Positions 24,563-62,228 of a DNA stretch of 64,000 nucleotides are shown piece by piece. Position 1 is the stretch's first letter; every line of letters begins with the position of its first letter. This DNA is from Symmetrospora coprosmae (lineage: Eukaryota > Basidiomycota > Cystobasidiomycetes > Symmetrosporaceae), in assembly GCA_008802785.1 (NCBI GenBank), contig VUYT01000025.1, forward strand, positions 1 to 64,000, given 5' to 3'. Both the position numbers and the translations under genes were made by a program. Under the pieces are notes generated by a model. That model did not search any database. It was not told where the DNA came from and worked only from the letters and a program-made list of their open reading frames with translations.

Positions 24563-26232
24563 GATAGGCGCTATGCTTGATGCCGTATTCTTGTGTTCAA
24601 TGTGATGATGTATTGCGTGTGCGAGAGAGAGAGGGGGCGCAGCCAAAAACGCGTCGAGGTGCCGCACTCTTGGACGCGGTGGCAAACGCGGATGTACGGA
24701 CTTTCGGTTTACAGGACAAAGTGCTGCACCGGGCACCAGGGTATGATTGACAAAGGCGACATGCGCCATATCTACATGCAGCAGCAAAGGCTGCACTCCC
24801 CGCGCGGGGGCTCGCCAGGCCTAGCCACGAACATGCCCGCTGGCACTTTCTCACAAATGTCCGCCCGCAGCCACATGTGCATGCGACACGCTGGATGACC
24901 AGGCACGCCCTTGTTGTGTCCCGGCTCTAGCCCCGCTCAGCCCCAACAGCACCATCGCAGCAAACTTGAGTGGACTCCTTCCCAAACCCTGCGGGAGCTT
25001 GCCTGCTGTCACATCGCCGGACCAGGCCGAATCGCAATGGGCTAGACTTGGGACTTGCGCAATGGTTGCAGCAAAAAGGTACGCTCTCTGCGTAAGAAAG
25101 GGCGTTGAGTATGTGAGCCCTAGCGTTGTCGAACCCTTAGACGTGTAAAGAGGGTGTCGAGTGGCAAGAAAGTGTGAGCTCCTAGGGTTATAGCACGGTG
25201 GGTGAGGGCTTGAGGCAGTCATCGATCCAGCGGACTCTGTTCGACAACCTGTAAGGTCGAGTACTAAGTCACCGCTGGGAGCGGACTGGAACGCCCCATC
25301 CCGCAACGGCCCCAGGCAGGATCACTGCCATGGAGGTGAAGGCGCTCAACCGGTGTGCCATGTCGCCCGTCATTGAAGCCCCGGTAACCGTGAAAGAGAG
25401 CTTTCTGCATGCGTTTATGGAGCCTCACGTACTCGGCCTGACGGTGCAGGGAGGTTGTCTGAGTGGTGGCATCGGCATAAGGCTGTTGCTAAGAGAGATC
25501 AAGGGTTTGGCTTGAGAGAGCATGTACTCGTCTTGTCAGGTACATAGTACAGCAGGATGCGTCTCTGTTGATGCGTCTCTGCTGATGCATGTGCAACAAT
25601 GCCGTACGCGCTTGCACCGTGCGGTTGAGCCGGTTGCGCGTCGGCGGGGTTTGGCCATCGCGATACTGCTCCAAAGGGCAGTCTTCATCCGTCGTGATGA
25701 CTTGCATTTCGTGAGCGCACCATCTGGCGAAACAATGCTGTCATGTGAGCGTCGGAGACTGAGCGTTAAAGTCTTGAGCCACAGGCAATTGGGGTTCTCG
25801 AGAGAGAGTGTCGCCTAGGATCTGGGCTTCCACAAGTGGAAGTACAAGAAAACGTCTTCATAGGCAGTGAGTACTCGCCAAGCCGGCTTTCGCTATGCTC
25901 GCGACCGACAGCTGCAGCGGCGGATTTACACGCGAGAGGTTTTCAGAACCTGCGAGGCGTTCTGAGTGCCATTGTAGCGATACGTAGCTGTGGCATCTCA
26001 TCACGAGTGTGCTAGACCTTGCAAAGGGCGTCGCTCTGGTTTCTTTGCGCTTTGGCGAAGTTGGCGTCTGCCAAACCATGAGTGTACATAGGGCAAGCGC
26101 CTTTGAGATCCTCCTCATCCCGGCTAGACTCCGAATCACCCTACAATTCATCGAAAGTGCAAGCAGAGCGCGGTCTCATCGTCGCATACGTCTACATAGC
26201 TCTTTTCCGTCCCGACAAGCCAATTCGCCAGC
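24563..26232. other. Long intergenic region containing a dispersed repeat
   Basis: 1.67 kb between the start of the F-box gene (-) and LST8 (+), which diverge. About 300 bases of it are copy 1 of the dispersed repeat. Open frames in the remainder have no recognisable domain. The last 150 bases are probably the LST8 promoter. Confidence 0.5.
25092..25393 (+). repeat. Dispersed repeat, copy 1
   Basis: About 300 bases that match 61341-61643 in the same orientation with scattered substitutions and small indels. Shared landmarks: GGCGTTGAGTATGTGAGCCC at the left, GAGCTCCTAGGGTTATAGCA, AATCCAGCGGACTCTGTTCG-like middle, and CGCTGGGAGCGGACTG then CATCCCGCAACGGCCCCAGG. The right end is near CATTGAAGC. 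The 3' half also matches 51911-52045 in reverse. No long open frame is kept between copies, so it looks non-coding. Confidence 0.85.
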
Positions 26233-38879: not shown

Positions 38880-39852
38880 GCTTGATATGGGATGTGTAAT
38901 ATGGTGCAGGACAGAGAGATGCTCAGCTCAGGCGTGCTCGCTCGTCCTCCATTCGGGTGAGGAAGCGGATAGACATGCCCACATCTGCTCCGCTCGCACC
39001 GAATGCACACTGACAGCATGGCAGCAATGGCAGCAGTCGCAGCAGTTACAGCAGCAGCGTACTGTGCATCGCTCGCTGCGTTTCTAATCGTGCTCGCGCT
39101 CAGACGGGCAAGGCCCCTCGGTACCGGTACCGGCTCGTGCCGCATGCAGGATGTACGCGCAATGGCGCAATGGACGCACTGAGACGCAGCCAGGCAGCTT
39201 GAGGTCCACTTCATTTCACTCTATCGTCATGGTCATTGGCAGGGCATGCAACACATCTGCGGAACAAAGACGATTGTGGTGACCATCTGGCGGGCGGCCC
39301 CCCCCCCCCCCCCCCGGGTTCCGAGTTGCCCTGGACCGACGACTCGAGACGCAGCGATAAGCGAACGGTTATTGACTGATGTTGAGCACCCATATGCATG
39401 CCTGGTCAGCACCGATGACTGACAGCGACAATTGCTGGCTGCGTAATCGGCCCATGCCAATGCTGGTCGCGGCACTCACTACTCAAGCCCCAGCCCAGAT
39501 TCCAATCTCGACAGATGCAAGGCCTGGAGGCTGGACGGCGGCATGCGCAGCGAAAACACTTCGCCCTGCCACGCCTTTACTTGGGCCCAAGCTCCTGCTT
39601 GCTTTCCCCCTCTCTTCCTCCCCAAGCACCCTCCCCACCATCTCAGCTGGTCTAAGCCGCTCCCTTACCGAACCCACCCCGGAACCTGGCTGATTGATTC
39701 AGACCACACGCCATCTCGGTACACTGCTGTGCAGTTCGAGCCTCGCTACCATCCGCCGTTGACCAGTGGGACAGTGTCTTCATCCCCACCTCGACCTCTC
39801 TGCTTCGACAGTCCTAGAGCCGGTCTCTCTACCCCTTCAACCTCCGCCCACA
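38880..39852. other. Divergent promoter region with a C homopolymer
   Basis: 973 bases between GGC1 (-) and the GH5 gene (+). It includes an 18-base run of C near 39299-39316. The last 250 bases are pyrimidine-rich with CTTCCCC stretches, like a fungal leader. No coding exon supported. Confidence 0.5.
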
Positions 39853-42380
39853 ATGCCTACTTCAGTCCTGGGCTCCGTCTCTTCCCTTACCAACGTCCTC
39901 GCCGGGCTCGGGCTCGTCGGCGCCCTCTTCAAGCCGGTGGCTCCGCTTGTCGACACGGTCAGCACGACGCTCCAGCCCGCCCTGGGCCCCACTGTCAATC
40001 CGGCACTCGCCCCTCTCGGGCTCTCCCTCATCGCGGCACCTGATGCCGACACCAACACGACGACAACGACCAATTCGGCCGCTGCAAACGCCAATGCGGG
40101 CACCAACGAGGCGACCTCGCGCGCACAGAACTCGCAGTGTGTCGTAGAGGCGTACGAGGTGCCCCCTCCCACCCAGTTCACCTTCCCGCCATACAACAAA
40201 GACGACGCCACCTTGTACAGGTACAGACAGCAGCAGTCTGTCAACCTCGGAGGCTGGTTCGCCCTCGAGAGCTGGATGACACCCTCGCTGTTTACCTGCG
40301 CCGGCGGCAATAAGACATCCGAGCTGGACTTTGCCATGGGCTGGGGCGCACCCGAGCTTGCTCGAATGGTTATTGGTGGGTCCGCCCTTGTCGAGCTGCT
40401 TTCAACTGCCTCAGAAGCTGACCTCTGGTCATCTTCCCCACAGAACGACATTGGTAAGCAATCCCCTGGATTATATCTGCTCCGCTGTTATCCGCATGGC
40501 AGTAGACTGAAAGCGCTTTCACCTGCTCATTTTAAAAGGGACACATTCATGGGCGAGGCCGGTAAGACCGAATGTTGCTCCGCTTTTATCCGCATGGAAT
40601 TCGACTGAAAGTGCTTTCACCGGGCAGATTGGGCATACCTCGCTAGCATTGGCGTCAACACTGTGCGCGTGCCTATCGGCTACTGGTCGCTGGGACCTGC
40701 CTTTCTCCAAGGCACGCCCTTTGAAAAATACGCCAGTGTCTACACCAACGCATGGGCTCGCGTCGTGCGCGCCATCAACGCTGCAGAGAAGTACAAGATT
40801 GGCGTCCTCATCGACGTGCACGGCGCCCCTGGCTCGCAGAACGGCCTGCCCTCTTCCGGCGTGTCCACGGGCATGCAGGACCTCTTCATCGACCCGGCCA
40901 ACGTGCACAAGACGCTTGCCGTCCTCAGCTTCCTCACGCAGCAGCTCGCGCCCGTCTCGAACGTTGTGGGCATGCAGATTCTCAACGAGCCGTATCCGGA
41001 CAAGAACCTCGAGCAGTTCTACAACATGACCATCTCGAGCCTGCGCACCCTCGTTCCGGAGGCGCTCAGCCTGCCATTCTACATCCACGACTCGTTCGAT
41101 CCAGTCCGCTTCTCCAACTTTGTCGCAAAGCGCCAGGACTTTGTCGTCATGGACCACCACTCGTACTTTGTCTTCAGCCAGGAGAACGCTGCCACGAACG
41201 TCGATAATCACACGGCCGAGGTCCAGACCGACATTGCCAGTGCTCTGTACTCGGCTTCGCAGACGGCACGGCGCAACATGGTCATTGGAGAATTTTCTTG
41301 CGCCCTCTCGGACGAGTCGCTCTCAAAGTCCGACAACCCCGACGAGGCCCGACGCAACTTCTGCACTACACAGATGGAGGTCTATGCCAATGTGCGTCGA
41401 TGTTAGAAGATCCAGTCGCGCTGATACCGTACGCTGACATCGTCAACTTCCAGATCTCGAGCGGCTGGTCCTTCTGGTCATATAACGAGGAGAGCTGCCA
41501 GGACGACCCGTCCTGGTGCTTCCGGTCCGCCGTTGGCAAGTCCCTTCCATCGTCCTTCAGCGCCTACCCCGATGCCCCTGCCCGCAACGCCTCCCGCTCG
41601 CAAACATCGCCAAGCGAGACCGTCAGTTTGATGTCGGACTCTCTCGTCGCCGCCATCAACGCGCTCGCTCCTCCCCCAATCGGCAACGCTGCGGGCGCCG
41701 CCATCAATGGCACCAAGGCGGATCTCAACACCGTTGAAGACGTCCCACTGACGCCCGCATCTGCTCAGAGCGCCGGAACCAAAGCCGTGACGTCCAATGC
41801 GGGCGCACTCGGCCTCGTCAAGCGCTTTGGGCACTGGGCGCGCCACCGCTCCGACTACTTCGCCGCCGCCAGCAAGCGCAGTGCCGCCGTCAGGCAGGCG
41901 CAGGCCGACAGTTCGGCAGAGTACTACCGCTCCCTCGTTCACCCCCGCAACTTCCGCGTCGCGGCTGCGCCAGCCTCGTCCAGCTCTGACGGGCCCACCG
42001 CTCCGCATCTCCGGTCGATGCGCAAGCGAGGGCCGTCCAGCTCCGAGCAGGCCATCTCGCTCGGCTACTCCGAGGGCTTTGAGGCGGGCAGGTCGTTCGC
42101 GGCCAACAATCTCAGCAAGGTCGGCTTCATCAACCAGCTCATCGAGGACAAGCTTGCCGATCACGTCGCAAACAAGGACCTCGAGGAGTCGAAGGGAGAC
42201 TACTATCGCAGCTGGTACGCCAAGGGCGTCGCAGACGCGGAGGCGCTAGTCGTGAGTCCGCCCGCGCATCGGATTCTATTCCCGCTGCCATTCCCGCCGC
42301 CGCTCATCTCTCTCCCTTCACGTCCCCAGGCCCAGACGCTCACCGCCGAAAGCGCTTCATCCCCGTCAAGCGACTTCTAG
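39853..42380 (+). CDS. GH5-family exo-beta-1,3-glucanase-like enzyme
   Basis: Likely cell-wall glucan hydrolase. Exons: 39853..40375, 40444..40453, 40539..40561, 40628..41391, 41454..42251, 42330..42380, giving 722 residues. The catalytic domain has SVNLGGWFALESWMTPSLF, HWDTFMGEADWAYLASIGVN, VRVPIGYWSLGPAF, and IGVLIDVHGAPGSQNG. The acid/base lies in GMQILNEPYPD and the nucleophile in MVIGEFSCAL, with SGWSFWSYNEE after it. The HWDTFMGEADW motif is built across a 10-base and a 23-base exon, and the two introns around the latter are near copies. The N-terminus is hydrophobic but lacks a clear signal-peptide cleavage site. About 240 C-terminal residues after the catalytic domain, including SEGFEAGRSFAANNLSKVGF, are unlike anything I recognise. 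The exact substrate is inferred from family. Confidence 0.88.
40454..40627 (+). repeat. Pair of near-identical introns flanking a 23-base exon
   Basis: Intron 40454..40538 and intron 40562..40627 share a 48-base core (about 40476-40523 and 40574-40621). By eye, 41 of 48 positions are identical without gaps. The core contains TTATCCGCATGG and then GACTGAAAG with a CTGA branch site, inside a palindrome GAAAGCGCTTTC (one change in the second copy). Both begin GTAAG. The exon between them has no resemblance to the core. Confidence 0.9.
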
Positions 42381-49172: not shown

Positions 49173-49330
49173 GATGCTGTCGGGAATTACAGTACCGGGC
49201 TCTCTTTCGAGCTTGAAGGAGGCGGCCAAGGCGGCGGACGAGCTGACTCGCTTGTACCAACTGTGTGTATATGTGTGTGCGTGTAAATGTGCGACTAACT
49301 TGGCTGGAGCAGAGCCGACCGGTGCTTTCC

Positions 49331-49375
49331 CTGCCCTGCCCTGCCCTGCCCTGCCCTGCCCTGCCCTGCCCTGCC
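49331..49375. repeat. CTGCC pentanucleotide tandem repeat, nine units
   Basis: Nine exact CTGCC units in the 262-base region between the divergent CAS1 (-) and RPB12 (+) start codons, about 60 bases before the RPB12 ATG. Confidence 0.95.
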
Positions 49376-49434
49376 TGTCTCTCTCAAGCCAGCACCATCC
49401 GTCAACAGTCAAGCACAAGTAGCGATCATCAGCC

Positions 49435-51766: not shown

Positions 51767-52252
51767 TGGTGTCGCCCGAAGGCCACAATGTTGTTGTTGT
51801 TGTCGAATATAGTGAACGACATGACCTGCAGCAAATTGACGTATCTGCCAGGTCCTCAAGTACTGCCCAAGTCATCACAATATGAACACTTCACTTTCAG
51901 CAGTTGCTACGGTCACCAGAGCTTCATTCACGGGCGACATGGCACACCGGTTGAGCGCCTTCACCTCCACGGCAGTGAACCTGCCTGGGGCTGTTGCGGG
52001 ATGGGGCGTTTCAGTCCGCTCCCAGCGGTGACCTAGTACTCGACCCCACCACAATACTACGCATGTGACTGCAGATTACCCACAAATGATATCGTGTGTC
52101 TGGTTTATGCTACATCTAAGTACCCTCCGCCGCTTGAAACTGAGCAGTCAAGCGTAAAGAATCTGCATCACACCCGTGTATGTATGGCCTGAAGGACGGC
52201 AGTGACGGTACAGATTACCGACTAAGGAGAAAGAGATGGACGAGCGGCCAGA
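51767..52252. other. Convergent intergenic region with repeat copy 3
   Basis: 486 bases between the SSU72 stop (+) and the arrestin-like stop (-). A truncated, inverted copy of the dispersed repeat fills 135 bases of it. Confidence 0.6.
51911..52045 (-). repeat. Dispersed repeat, copy 3 (5'-truncated, inverted)
   Basis: Reverse complement of the 3' half of the repeat. It runs from GGTCGAGTACTA through CGCTGGGAGCGGACTGAAAC, CCCATCCCGCAAC and GGTGAAGGCGCTCAACCGGT to GCTCTGGTGACC. The 5' half present in copies 1 and 2 is missing. Confidence 0.88.
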
Positions 52253-60922: not shown

Positions 60923-62228
60923 ACGCTTATGACGGTTGCCGCGGCGGCGGCATGTGCAGTTCTCCGACTTACAGATGAGATTTTTGTACTATACTGTTGG
61001 AACAGGTTCAACGTGAGCAGGGTTATTCAGGCGCTTCCTTACATGGCTGCAAGTGGCAGGGCGCTCGAAATCGGCTTCGAAGCAGGTTCTGCACCAAAAC
61101 AAGTCTCAACTGATGGCAACCAGCTCTTGCGCTCGCAGTACAATATCATCAATCCAACTCGGAGGGAAGATCCCTGTTCCCCTTCGCACTGACACAACTT
61201 CTTCTGCAGGGTGCGCGGCCCTCCGAGAAGCTGGCGCCATTTCGCCAGTGACCTCGTTAGATTCCTCAGCCAGTCCAGATCACGATGGCGCTGGCGCTGG
61301 AAGCAGACCAGCGTGCAGCAATAAGGGACAGTCTGTGTGAGGTAGAAAAGGCGTTGAGTATGTGAGCCCTGGCGTCGTCGAACCTCAGGACGTTATAGAG
61401 AGGTGGTCGAGTGGCAAAAAAAGCGTGAGCTCCTAGGGTTATAGCACAACGCCTGAGGGCTTAAGGCAGTCATCAATCCAGCGGACTCTGTTCGCCAACC
61501 CGGAAGGTCGAGTACTAAGTCACCGCTGGGAGCGGACTGAAACGCCCCATCCCGCAACGGCCCCAGGCAGGATCACTGCTCTAGAGGTGAAGGCGCTCAA
61601 CCGGTGTGCCATGTCACCCGTCATTGAAGCTCTGGTGACCATGATGGGCAGTGAAACGCAACGGTATATGGAAACTGCGTTGACGTTTCCCGCTGCCTCT
61701 CCGGGCGGGCGCGTACGGGATCGTATCTCCTCCAGCTCCACCCTAGCATCGCGTAGGCCGGACCTTCAAGCGCTCATTGCGTGAGATACACGGGCGCAGA
61801 TTTTGAAGAGGTGACTAAGACGACTGTGTCGCACAAGCTGGCGCGCTGCTGCATTCGCCATGTAAGATTGGGGATGTCCGAGCGTCCCGGTGTCCGTTTG
61901 ACCTTTCTCACTAGCGGCGGAACTGCAAGCTACGTCATCTCCGGCCAGACAGCTGGTGTCCGCACAGGCGCAGTCTCTCCGTTCTACTTGTGCCGGCGCT
62001 TGAGCGGATTCAATGGATGACTTCAGGATGGGTCGGCATGCCCGCCGAAGCCGCTCCAGCTCGTTTACCCTCCCGGCTTAACTACACGGGGCGCGCCGGA
62101 GAGCGAGGAAGGTTGCTCTGCACAGGATCTTCATCCCAACGGTACTCATTACTCTAGCTGGCCTGAATGAAAGCAGCGTCACATGATCAGGCCACGCTCT
62201 CGGCCTCGGCTCCTAAACGCGTCTTCGC
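60923..62228. other. Intergenic region with repeat copy 2
   Basis: 1.3 kb after the SRPBCC gene. About 300 bases are copy 2 of the dispersed repeat. The remaining open frames (for example around 61781-62020) have no recognisable domain. If the dehydrogenase-like gene downstream once had an N-terminal half, it should lie here, but I could not find it. Confidence 0.5.
61341..61643 (+). repeat. Dispersed repeat, copy 2
   Basis: Same unit and orientation as 25092-25393. Within it, GGTCGAGTGGC (about 61407) resembles a tRNA-type A box and AGGTCGAGTACT (about 61505) a B box, each with mismatches. The 3' end falls near GCTCTGGTGACC, as in copy 3. Confidence 0.87.

Follow-up and report, generated by a model that had tools for sequence, protein, structure and literature searches.

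Introns change fast, and for that reason the origin of their sequence is seldom visible. Within the window analysed here (the whole stretch of DNA, 64 kb in length), two neighbouring introns of a GH5 gene, which we call A and B, carry interiors that are nearly the same. The locus therefore raises the question of which intron supplied this sequence, by what kind of copying, and whether an intron was born in the process or an existing one enlarged.

The GH5 gene and its two micro-exons

The features of the locus are collected in Table 1. In phmmer, the catalytic part of the predicted GH5 protein matched the Candida exo-1,3-glucanase 1eqp (131 bits, E 4.9e-37) and also 1cz1, with 18 distinct PDB sequences matched at E <=0.001. 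When the short final exon was omitted from the query, the protein matched Pfam PF00150 at 41 bits (cut-off 23.5). In the predicted gene, intron A lies between two micro-exons and intron B follows the second of them. The protein that includes both micro-exons reads ELARMVIERHWDTFMGEADWAYLASIG and gives an ungapped alignment to a Candida segment of 27 protein letters.

Two alternative models are also open in frame. One reads intron 1 as coding and takes out 40454-40627 as a single 174-nt intron. The other skips both micro-exons by joining the intron-1 donor to the intron-B acceptor, which keeps the frame because the micro-exons (within 40444-40561) sum to 33 nt, at the cost of 11 residues including the conserved HW. 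Against 1eqp, the model with both micro-exons scored 131.2 bits, compared with 106.4 when intron 1 was retained and 105.3 when both micro-exons were skipped, and the best scores of these two alternatives against any chain were 107.1 and 107.8, respectively. The model with intron 1 coding and a 174-nt intron is thus disfavoured, lying some 25 bits lower against 1eqp. Our custom gene finder proposed the same structure for the GH5 gene (intron 1 coding, 40454-40627 one intron) and is contradicted by the homology scores; it over-predicts introns (121 in 22 genes), and its counts were left unused.

The predicted 10- and 23-base exons are supported by these homology scores. The initial annotation had placed introns at 40454..40538 and 40562..40627, with exons beside them that show no duplicate likeness of their own; the coordinates and the splice sites (GTAAGC...AAAAG and GTAAGA...GGGCAG) held, and in the Candida alignment both exons encode conserved residues once. 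Retention of intron A would lead to an immediate stop, and retention of intron B to an in-frame TGA inside its CTGA motif; removal of both from the mRNA is predicted from homology together with their GT-AG ends and motifs. Whereas A and B start with GTAAG, the 5' ends of the remaining three predicted introns are GTGGGT, GTGCGT and GTGAGT. Because of its 10- and 23-base exons the gene is easy to mis-annotate: automatic annotation could miss them, and may report the model in which intron 1 is coding (40376-40627).

Upstream of the gene, a run of 18 C residues at 39298-39315 is possibly an assembly or sequencing feature. No tRNA was found in the 64-kb window. A pattern made from the GH5 protein matched 5 stretches in viral contigs, with 0 relatives among them.

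Table 1. Features of the GH5 locus, in window positions
Feature	Position	Strand	Basis or remark
GH5 exo-1,3-beta-glucanase-like gene	39853..42380	+	phmmer, Pfam PF00150, exon joins
Exons of the GH5 gene	39853-40375, 40444-40453, 40539-40561, 40628-41391, 41454-42251, 42330-42380	+	Least certain: last intron
Intron 1, 68 nt, GTGGGT...CACAG	40376..40443	+	Homology model scores above the model with intron 1 retained
Micro-exon, 10 nt, AA CGA CAT TG, part of conserved E-R-H-W	40444..40453	+	Alignment to Candida LQKHWSTW
Intron A, 85 nt, phase 2, GTAAGC...AAAAG; likely recipient of copied core	40454..40538	+	
CTGCTC direct repeat, left copy	40477..40482	+	Spans left edge of core A
Core copy A, 46 nt	40478..40523	+	CTGA at 40507-40510; 14-bp perfect palindrome at 40508-40521
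CTGCTC direct repeat, right copy	40523..40528	+	Spans right edge of core A
Micro-exon, 23 nt, encodes (W)DTFMGEA	40539..40561	+	Alignment to Candida WSTWITEQD
Intron B, 66 nt, phase 1, GTAAGA...GGGCAG; likely source of core	40562..40627	+	
Core copy B, 46 nt	40576..40621	+	41/46 identical to copy A; start-to-start spacing 98

The shared core

The likeness of introns A and B is real and clearly non-random. Their local alignment score is 36, compared with 8.3 on average and 17.5 at most for 5000 dinucleotide-shuffled pairs, and the two cores align without gaps at 41 identical positions, with differences at core positions 10, 23, 25, 27 and 37. The initial annotation's view that the two introns are alike by copying is supported, and its number of identities (about 41) holds, but the core that it gave as 48 bases is 46 bases long and ungapped.

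We looked for the core beyond this pair in several ways. Among about 62 million ungapped 46-mer comparisons within the window (offsets 20-1000), there was a single other cluster, at 36/46, in a short CCTGC tandem run at 49325-49390. A BLAST of the window against itself (E <=1e-3, low-complexity filter on) gave four pairs, namely the A/B core and three within one dispersed repeat. A pattern that was unconstrained at the variable sites and tolerated as many as 3 mismatches found no third copy of the core in the window (100 shuffles gave 0), and a profile built from the two copies gave 47.6 and 46.9 bits for its own copies and at most 6.3 bits elsewhere among the best 20 matches listed; nothing in the rest of the window rose above short chance words. 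Core patterns gave 0 matches in viral contigs. An 18-base core pattern with 17 fixed bases matched at least 50 loci in bacterial and archaeal genomes, with bacterial titles, where a rough estimate puts chance at about 30; these loci were left unused. Intron 1, compared with A and B minus its first two bases, was rejected as a third member of the set, since its local scores of 12 (against A) and 8 (against B) lie inside the shuffle range.

The dispersed repeat has three copies, at 25067-25393 (+), 61314-61644 (+) and 51909-52045 (-), which are 87-93% identical. The third consists of only about the last 140 bases, and all three end near the same point. It is perhaps a degenerate transposable element, and had no Rfam match.

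The edges of the likeness and the CTGCTC repeat

The core is flanked in intron A by 24 nt towards the 5' end and 15 nt towards the 3' end, and in intron B by 14 and 6 nt. The likeness does not continue into these flanks: ungapped extension beyond the core gave 2/14 matches to the left and 4/20 to the right, and when the 5' ends (from behind GTAAG) and the 3' ends (up to the AG) were aligned globally, 2746 and 3202 of 5000 shuffles, respectively, did equally well or better. What A and B do have in common outside the core is the GTAAG start and the AG end, and the fact that the other three introns start differently makes GTAAG a point for copying of the whole intron.

Core A is bracketed by a CTGCTC direct repeat. 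At this repeat's offset, runs of at least 6 touch 134 of 63500 window positions (0.2%), and direct repeats at the other edges tested measured 0 bases (core B), 2 (intron A) and 1 (intron B). With four edges tested, a repeat of this length is expected by chance in about 1 in 100 cases. A match of 5 or 6 bases can arise by chance, and the repeat is not decisive. Core B starts with TGCTC as well, with nothing similar after it, and the right-hand joint of core A, at which synthesis would return to A in the copying proposed below, has one base of overlap only. No terminal inverted repeats were found at the ends of the core or of the introns: ungapped comparison with the reverse complement gives 2 or 3 matches in the first 12 bases, and an inverted-repeat search with a minimum of 12 bases also found none there.

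The introns without their core

Another way to view the pair is to ask what each intron would be without its core. Intron A minus the core is GTAAGCAATCCCCTGGATTATATCTGCTCATTTTAAAAG, a 39-nt remainder with GT, AG and one YTNAY motif, CTCAT, which occurs in the predicted last intron too. Read as exon, this remainder stops at once (TGG TAA), and is thus not coding in this frame. Intron B minus the core is 20 nt and has no YTNAY, that is, no branch-like, motif. A length of 39 nt is enough for a fungal intron and one of 20 nt is too short, and in this fungus 39 nt may suffice. Intron B therefore depends on the core, while A need not, and consequently the core was probably B's originally and was copied into a shorter, putative intron A.

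As to what the core provides, both copies carry CTGA (core 30-33) and TTCAC (core 41-45), either of which could be the branch site. The initial annotation's description of a core with a branch site and a palindrome therefore stands for the branch-like motifs in both copies, and for the palindrome in one: the 14-bp perfect palindrome TGAAAGCGCTTTCA, one of 4 such in the window, is present only in core A, and its counterpart in core B, TGAAAGTGCTTTCA, is broken by one change.

Structure, selection and age

Compared with shuffled sequences, neither the introns nor the cores showed excess folding (z -0.28 for intron A, 0.87 for intron B, 0.01 and -0.30 for the cores), and none had an Rfam match; we therefore rejected RNA structure or an Rfam family as the cause of the likeness. 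In the hairpin predicted for core A, the differences at positions 10 and 23 together change a G-C pair to T-A, and position 37 falls in a loop. Random sets of five changes give such a double compensatory change in about 6% of cases, another of the five differences breaks a pair in the same hairpin, and the fold predicted for core B differs, so that in these predicted folds the 10/23 pair is at most a weak hint of selection.

For the copying event, suggested by the initial annotation to be recent, the 5 differences in 46 positions correspond to a Jukes-Cantor distance of 0.117. In basidiomycetes, as described in the available text of PMC3584928, the introns of one gene diverged too fast to be aligned even between close species. 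An ancient copying event is thus improbable, unless the core has been under constraint.

Origin of the core

Our preferred explanation is one local copying event, of a broadly known kind and with B the most likely source and A the recipient. Specifically, a segment of about 46 nt would have been copied locally, at the DNA level, from inside intron B into intron A, 98 bases upstream; we favour this account tentatively, at somewhat less than an even chance. Synthesis in A would get as far as CTGCTC and then switch to B via the microhomology TGCTC. B's branch-site region would be copied next, as far as ...TTTCACC, before synthesis goes back to A ahead of its CTGCTC and copies CTGCTC again, which would leave the insert between two CTGCTC repeats. 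Intron A would have grown in this way from about 39 nt, with its own GT, CTCAT and AG, to 85 nt, so that the event would be the enlargement of an existing intron by its neighbour's splicing segment, not the birth of an intron. Local copying from B to A is expected to give a short internal tract with sharp edges, a small distance and the same orientation, as well as a CTGCTC repeat at A and a self-sufficient A remainder. In microhomology-mediated templated insertion, the inserted sequence has a template close by, and a few bases at the joint of entry are common to both; here, the likely source lies 98 bases off, and TGCTC stands at the left edge of both cores and is repeated after the insert in A. 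The homology with its sharp edges, the repeat at core A, the single-copy exons and the motifs that remain without the core are observations; splicing, the direction of copying, its occurrence at the DNA level and the age of the event are inferred.

Copying in the opposite sense would be intron birth, the inside of A having been copied into the exon 98 bases downstream, with filler at both joints, to create intron B. This would suit the sharp edges of the likeness, the large share of intron B taken up by the core (46 of 66 nt) and the lack of a branch-like motif in B without it. However, B carries no scar (neither core B nor intron B is flanked by a direct repeat of more than 1 base) and the CTGCTC repeat at A is left to chance, and we think this course of events unlikely. 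The initial annotation had suggested that the core could be a mobile unit, and an introner or other such unit, a member of a multi-copy family, could have inserted in both introns, either as the core or as an element containing it. The part of that suggestion that stands is the 6-base direct repeat around core A, a possible trace of such a unit that resembles a target-site duplication; adjacent introner-like elements in one gene are moreover known from Passalora species, 145-626 bp apart, according to the text available of PMC4457414. The remainder of the evidence goes the other way. There is no such repeat at core B and none beyond 2 bases around the whole introns, the likeness stops short of the intron ends, the core ends have no inverted repeats, folding is not in excess and the 64 kb hold no third copy, though even a family with a few hundred members might have no further copy in a single window. 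The fungal introner hosts named in the available text of a large survey are Pezizomycotina and ascomycetes (PMC9860276). Furthermore, TGCTC lies inside core B too, so the CTGCTC repeat does not come simply from a target in A. Read as a target-site duplication, the alternative to a template switch, it would require TGCTC in B to be inherited from A or due to chance. Target-site duplications are absent from some introner families. Taking both sides together, we judge a mobile unit of this kind quite unlikely. A narrower version, in which this lineage of fungi carries an unreported element whose smallest mobile part is the core itself, consisting of the branch site and downstream tract only, with a 6-base target duplication (at A) and use of the host GT/AG, and missed by surveys that demand likeness to both splice sites, we consider improbable.

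In a route through RNA, one intron would have entered a nearby site in its own mRNA by reverse splicing, and reverse transcription and recombination would have returned it to the gene, its ends having diverged since. That A and B both have the form GTAAG - core - AG, while the other three introns start differently, agrees with this, and reverse splicing into an intron's own mRNA is a named model (in the available portions of PMC3443670 and PMC3629103). The model predicts likeness from GT to AG, however, and the actual ends differ in length and sequence; in addition, a spliced cDNA would be expected to delete neighbouring introns, except where only a very short tract was exchanged. We regard this route as distinctly unlikely. 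Ectopic gene conversion, in which the interior of one of two older, unrelated introns was overwritten by that of the other, would give sharp tract edges within both introns, direct orientation and close spacing, but needs starting homology, of which only TGCTC is visible outside the core, and overwriting does not predict the repeat at A; it seems to us rather improbable. Were the core instead functional, for example as a splicing enhancer or a structured RNA, with selection preserving the likeness between two introns that are old duplicates, the paired change at positions 10 and 23 and the loop position of 37 would be in keeping with it, but the chance rate of such a change, the broken pair, the differing fold of core B, the z-scores near 0 and the missing Rfam match all speak against it, making it very improbable. 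Finally, the initial annotation had offered a tandem duplication of intron and exon, after which the surplus exon disappeared. The copies would then lie close together in direct orientation, as they do, but the sequences before cores A and B are unrelated, as are those after them, no adjacent exon matches the core, and the exon between encodes its conserved residues once, and we disfavour it as extremely improbable.

Comparison with known systems

A survey of 3,325 genomes for introners required that likeness begin, at each end of the two introns, no more than 5 exonic or 10 intronic bases from the boundary, and further required host proteins that are not similar and families of at least four introns (available text of PMC9860276). 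Judged on the ungapped core, with the GTAAG common to A and B excluded, the likeness of our pair begins outside these limits at three of the four intron ends; both introns lie in one gene, so the pair would be dropped, and the 64-kb window has two such introns rather than four. Likeness in a sub-portion of introns only is given in the same text as a mark of secondary insertion, and this is how we read the core in intron A. The secondary insertions filtered out by that survey resemble our case in their sub-portion likeness, but those named there are transposons or microsatellites, whereas here the insert would be the neighbour intron's own segment. The introner-like elements of Dothideomycetes and the introners of algae (PMC4457414 and PMC9860276, in part) likewise place similar sequence in more than one intron, but form families with likeness to near both splice sites, compared with two copies and the core only here. 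A stable predicted secondary structure is a trait of fungal introner-like elements, as cited in the available text of PMC8469720, and is not seen in A, B or the cores, with their z-scores near 0. No report of introner-like elements in basidiomycetes was found in the available portions of PMC8476143, PMC3488318 and PMC4457414.

Other systems also offer parallels. In the within-gene intron duplication of Zymoseptoria tritici, cited in the portion of PMC4457414 available, introns of one gene are alike by copying, as they are here; in our case, only the interior is in common, 23 exon bases lie between, and enlargement rather than gain is preferred. In that species, other types of intron duplication, including tandem duplication within a gene, make up <1% of single gains (same portion of PMC4457414). 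Intron transposition by reverse splicing (PMC3443670 and PMC3629103, in part) similarly copies intron sequence within its own gene, but predicts whole-intron likeness, which is not seen here. Insertion during double-strand break repair, as treated in the available part of PMC3443670, gives an insert flanked by a short direct repeat, like core A, but concerns gained introns, of which 43% in Daphnia are repeat-flanked, and the source named is mitochondrial DNA. The symmetrical sister stwintrons of Hypoxylaceae are also related introns that hold a palindrome; however, they have terminal inverted repeats of 45-55 nt and a 10-nt palindrome, central in one example (PMC8469720, in part), whereas the palindrome here is 14 bp long, off-centre and in one copy.

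Implications

Cases of this type escape introner surveys whose criteria include likeness along the whole intron and a family size of at least four. At this locus, source and copy may sit 98 bases apart, with the joint readable. If relatives have a 39-nt intron A, the locus would record the growth of an intron through the branch-site segment of its neighbour; if, instead, relatives are without intron B, it would be a record of intron birth. Thus, both the enlargement and the birth of an intron are readings that can be tested from one gene.
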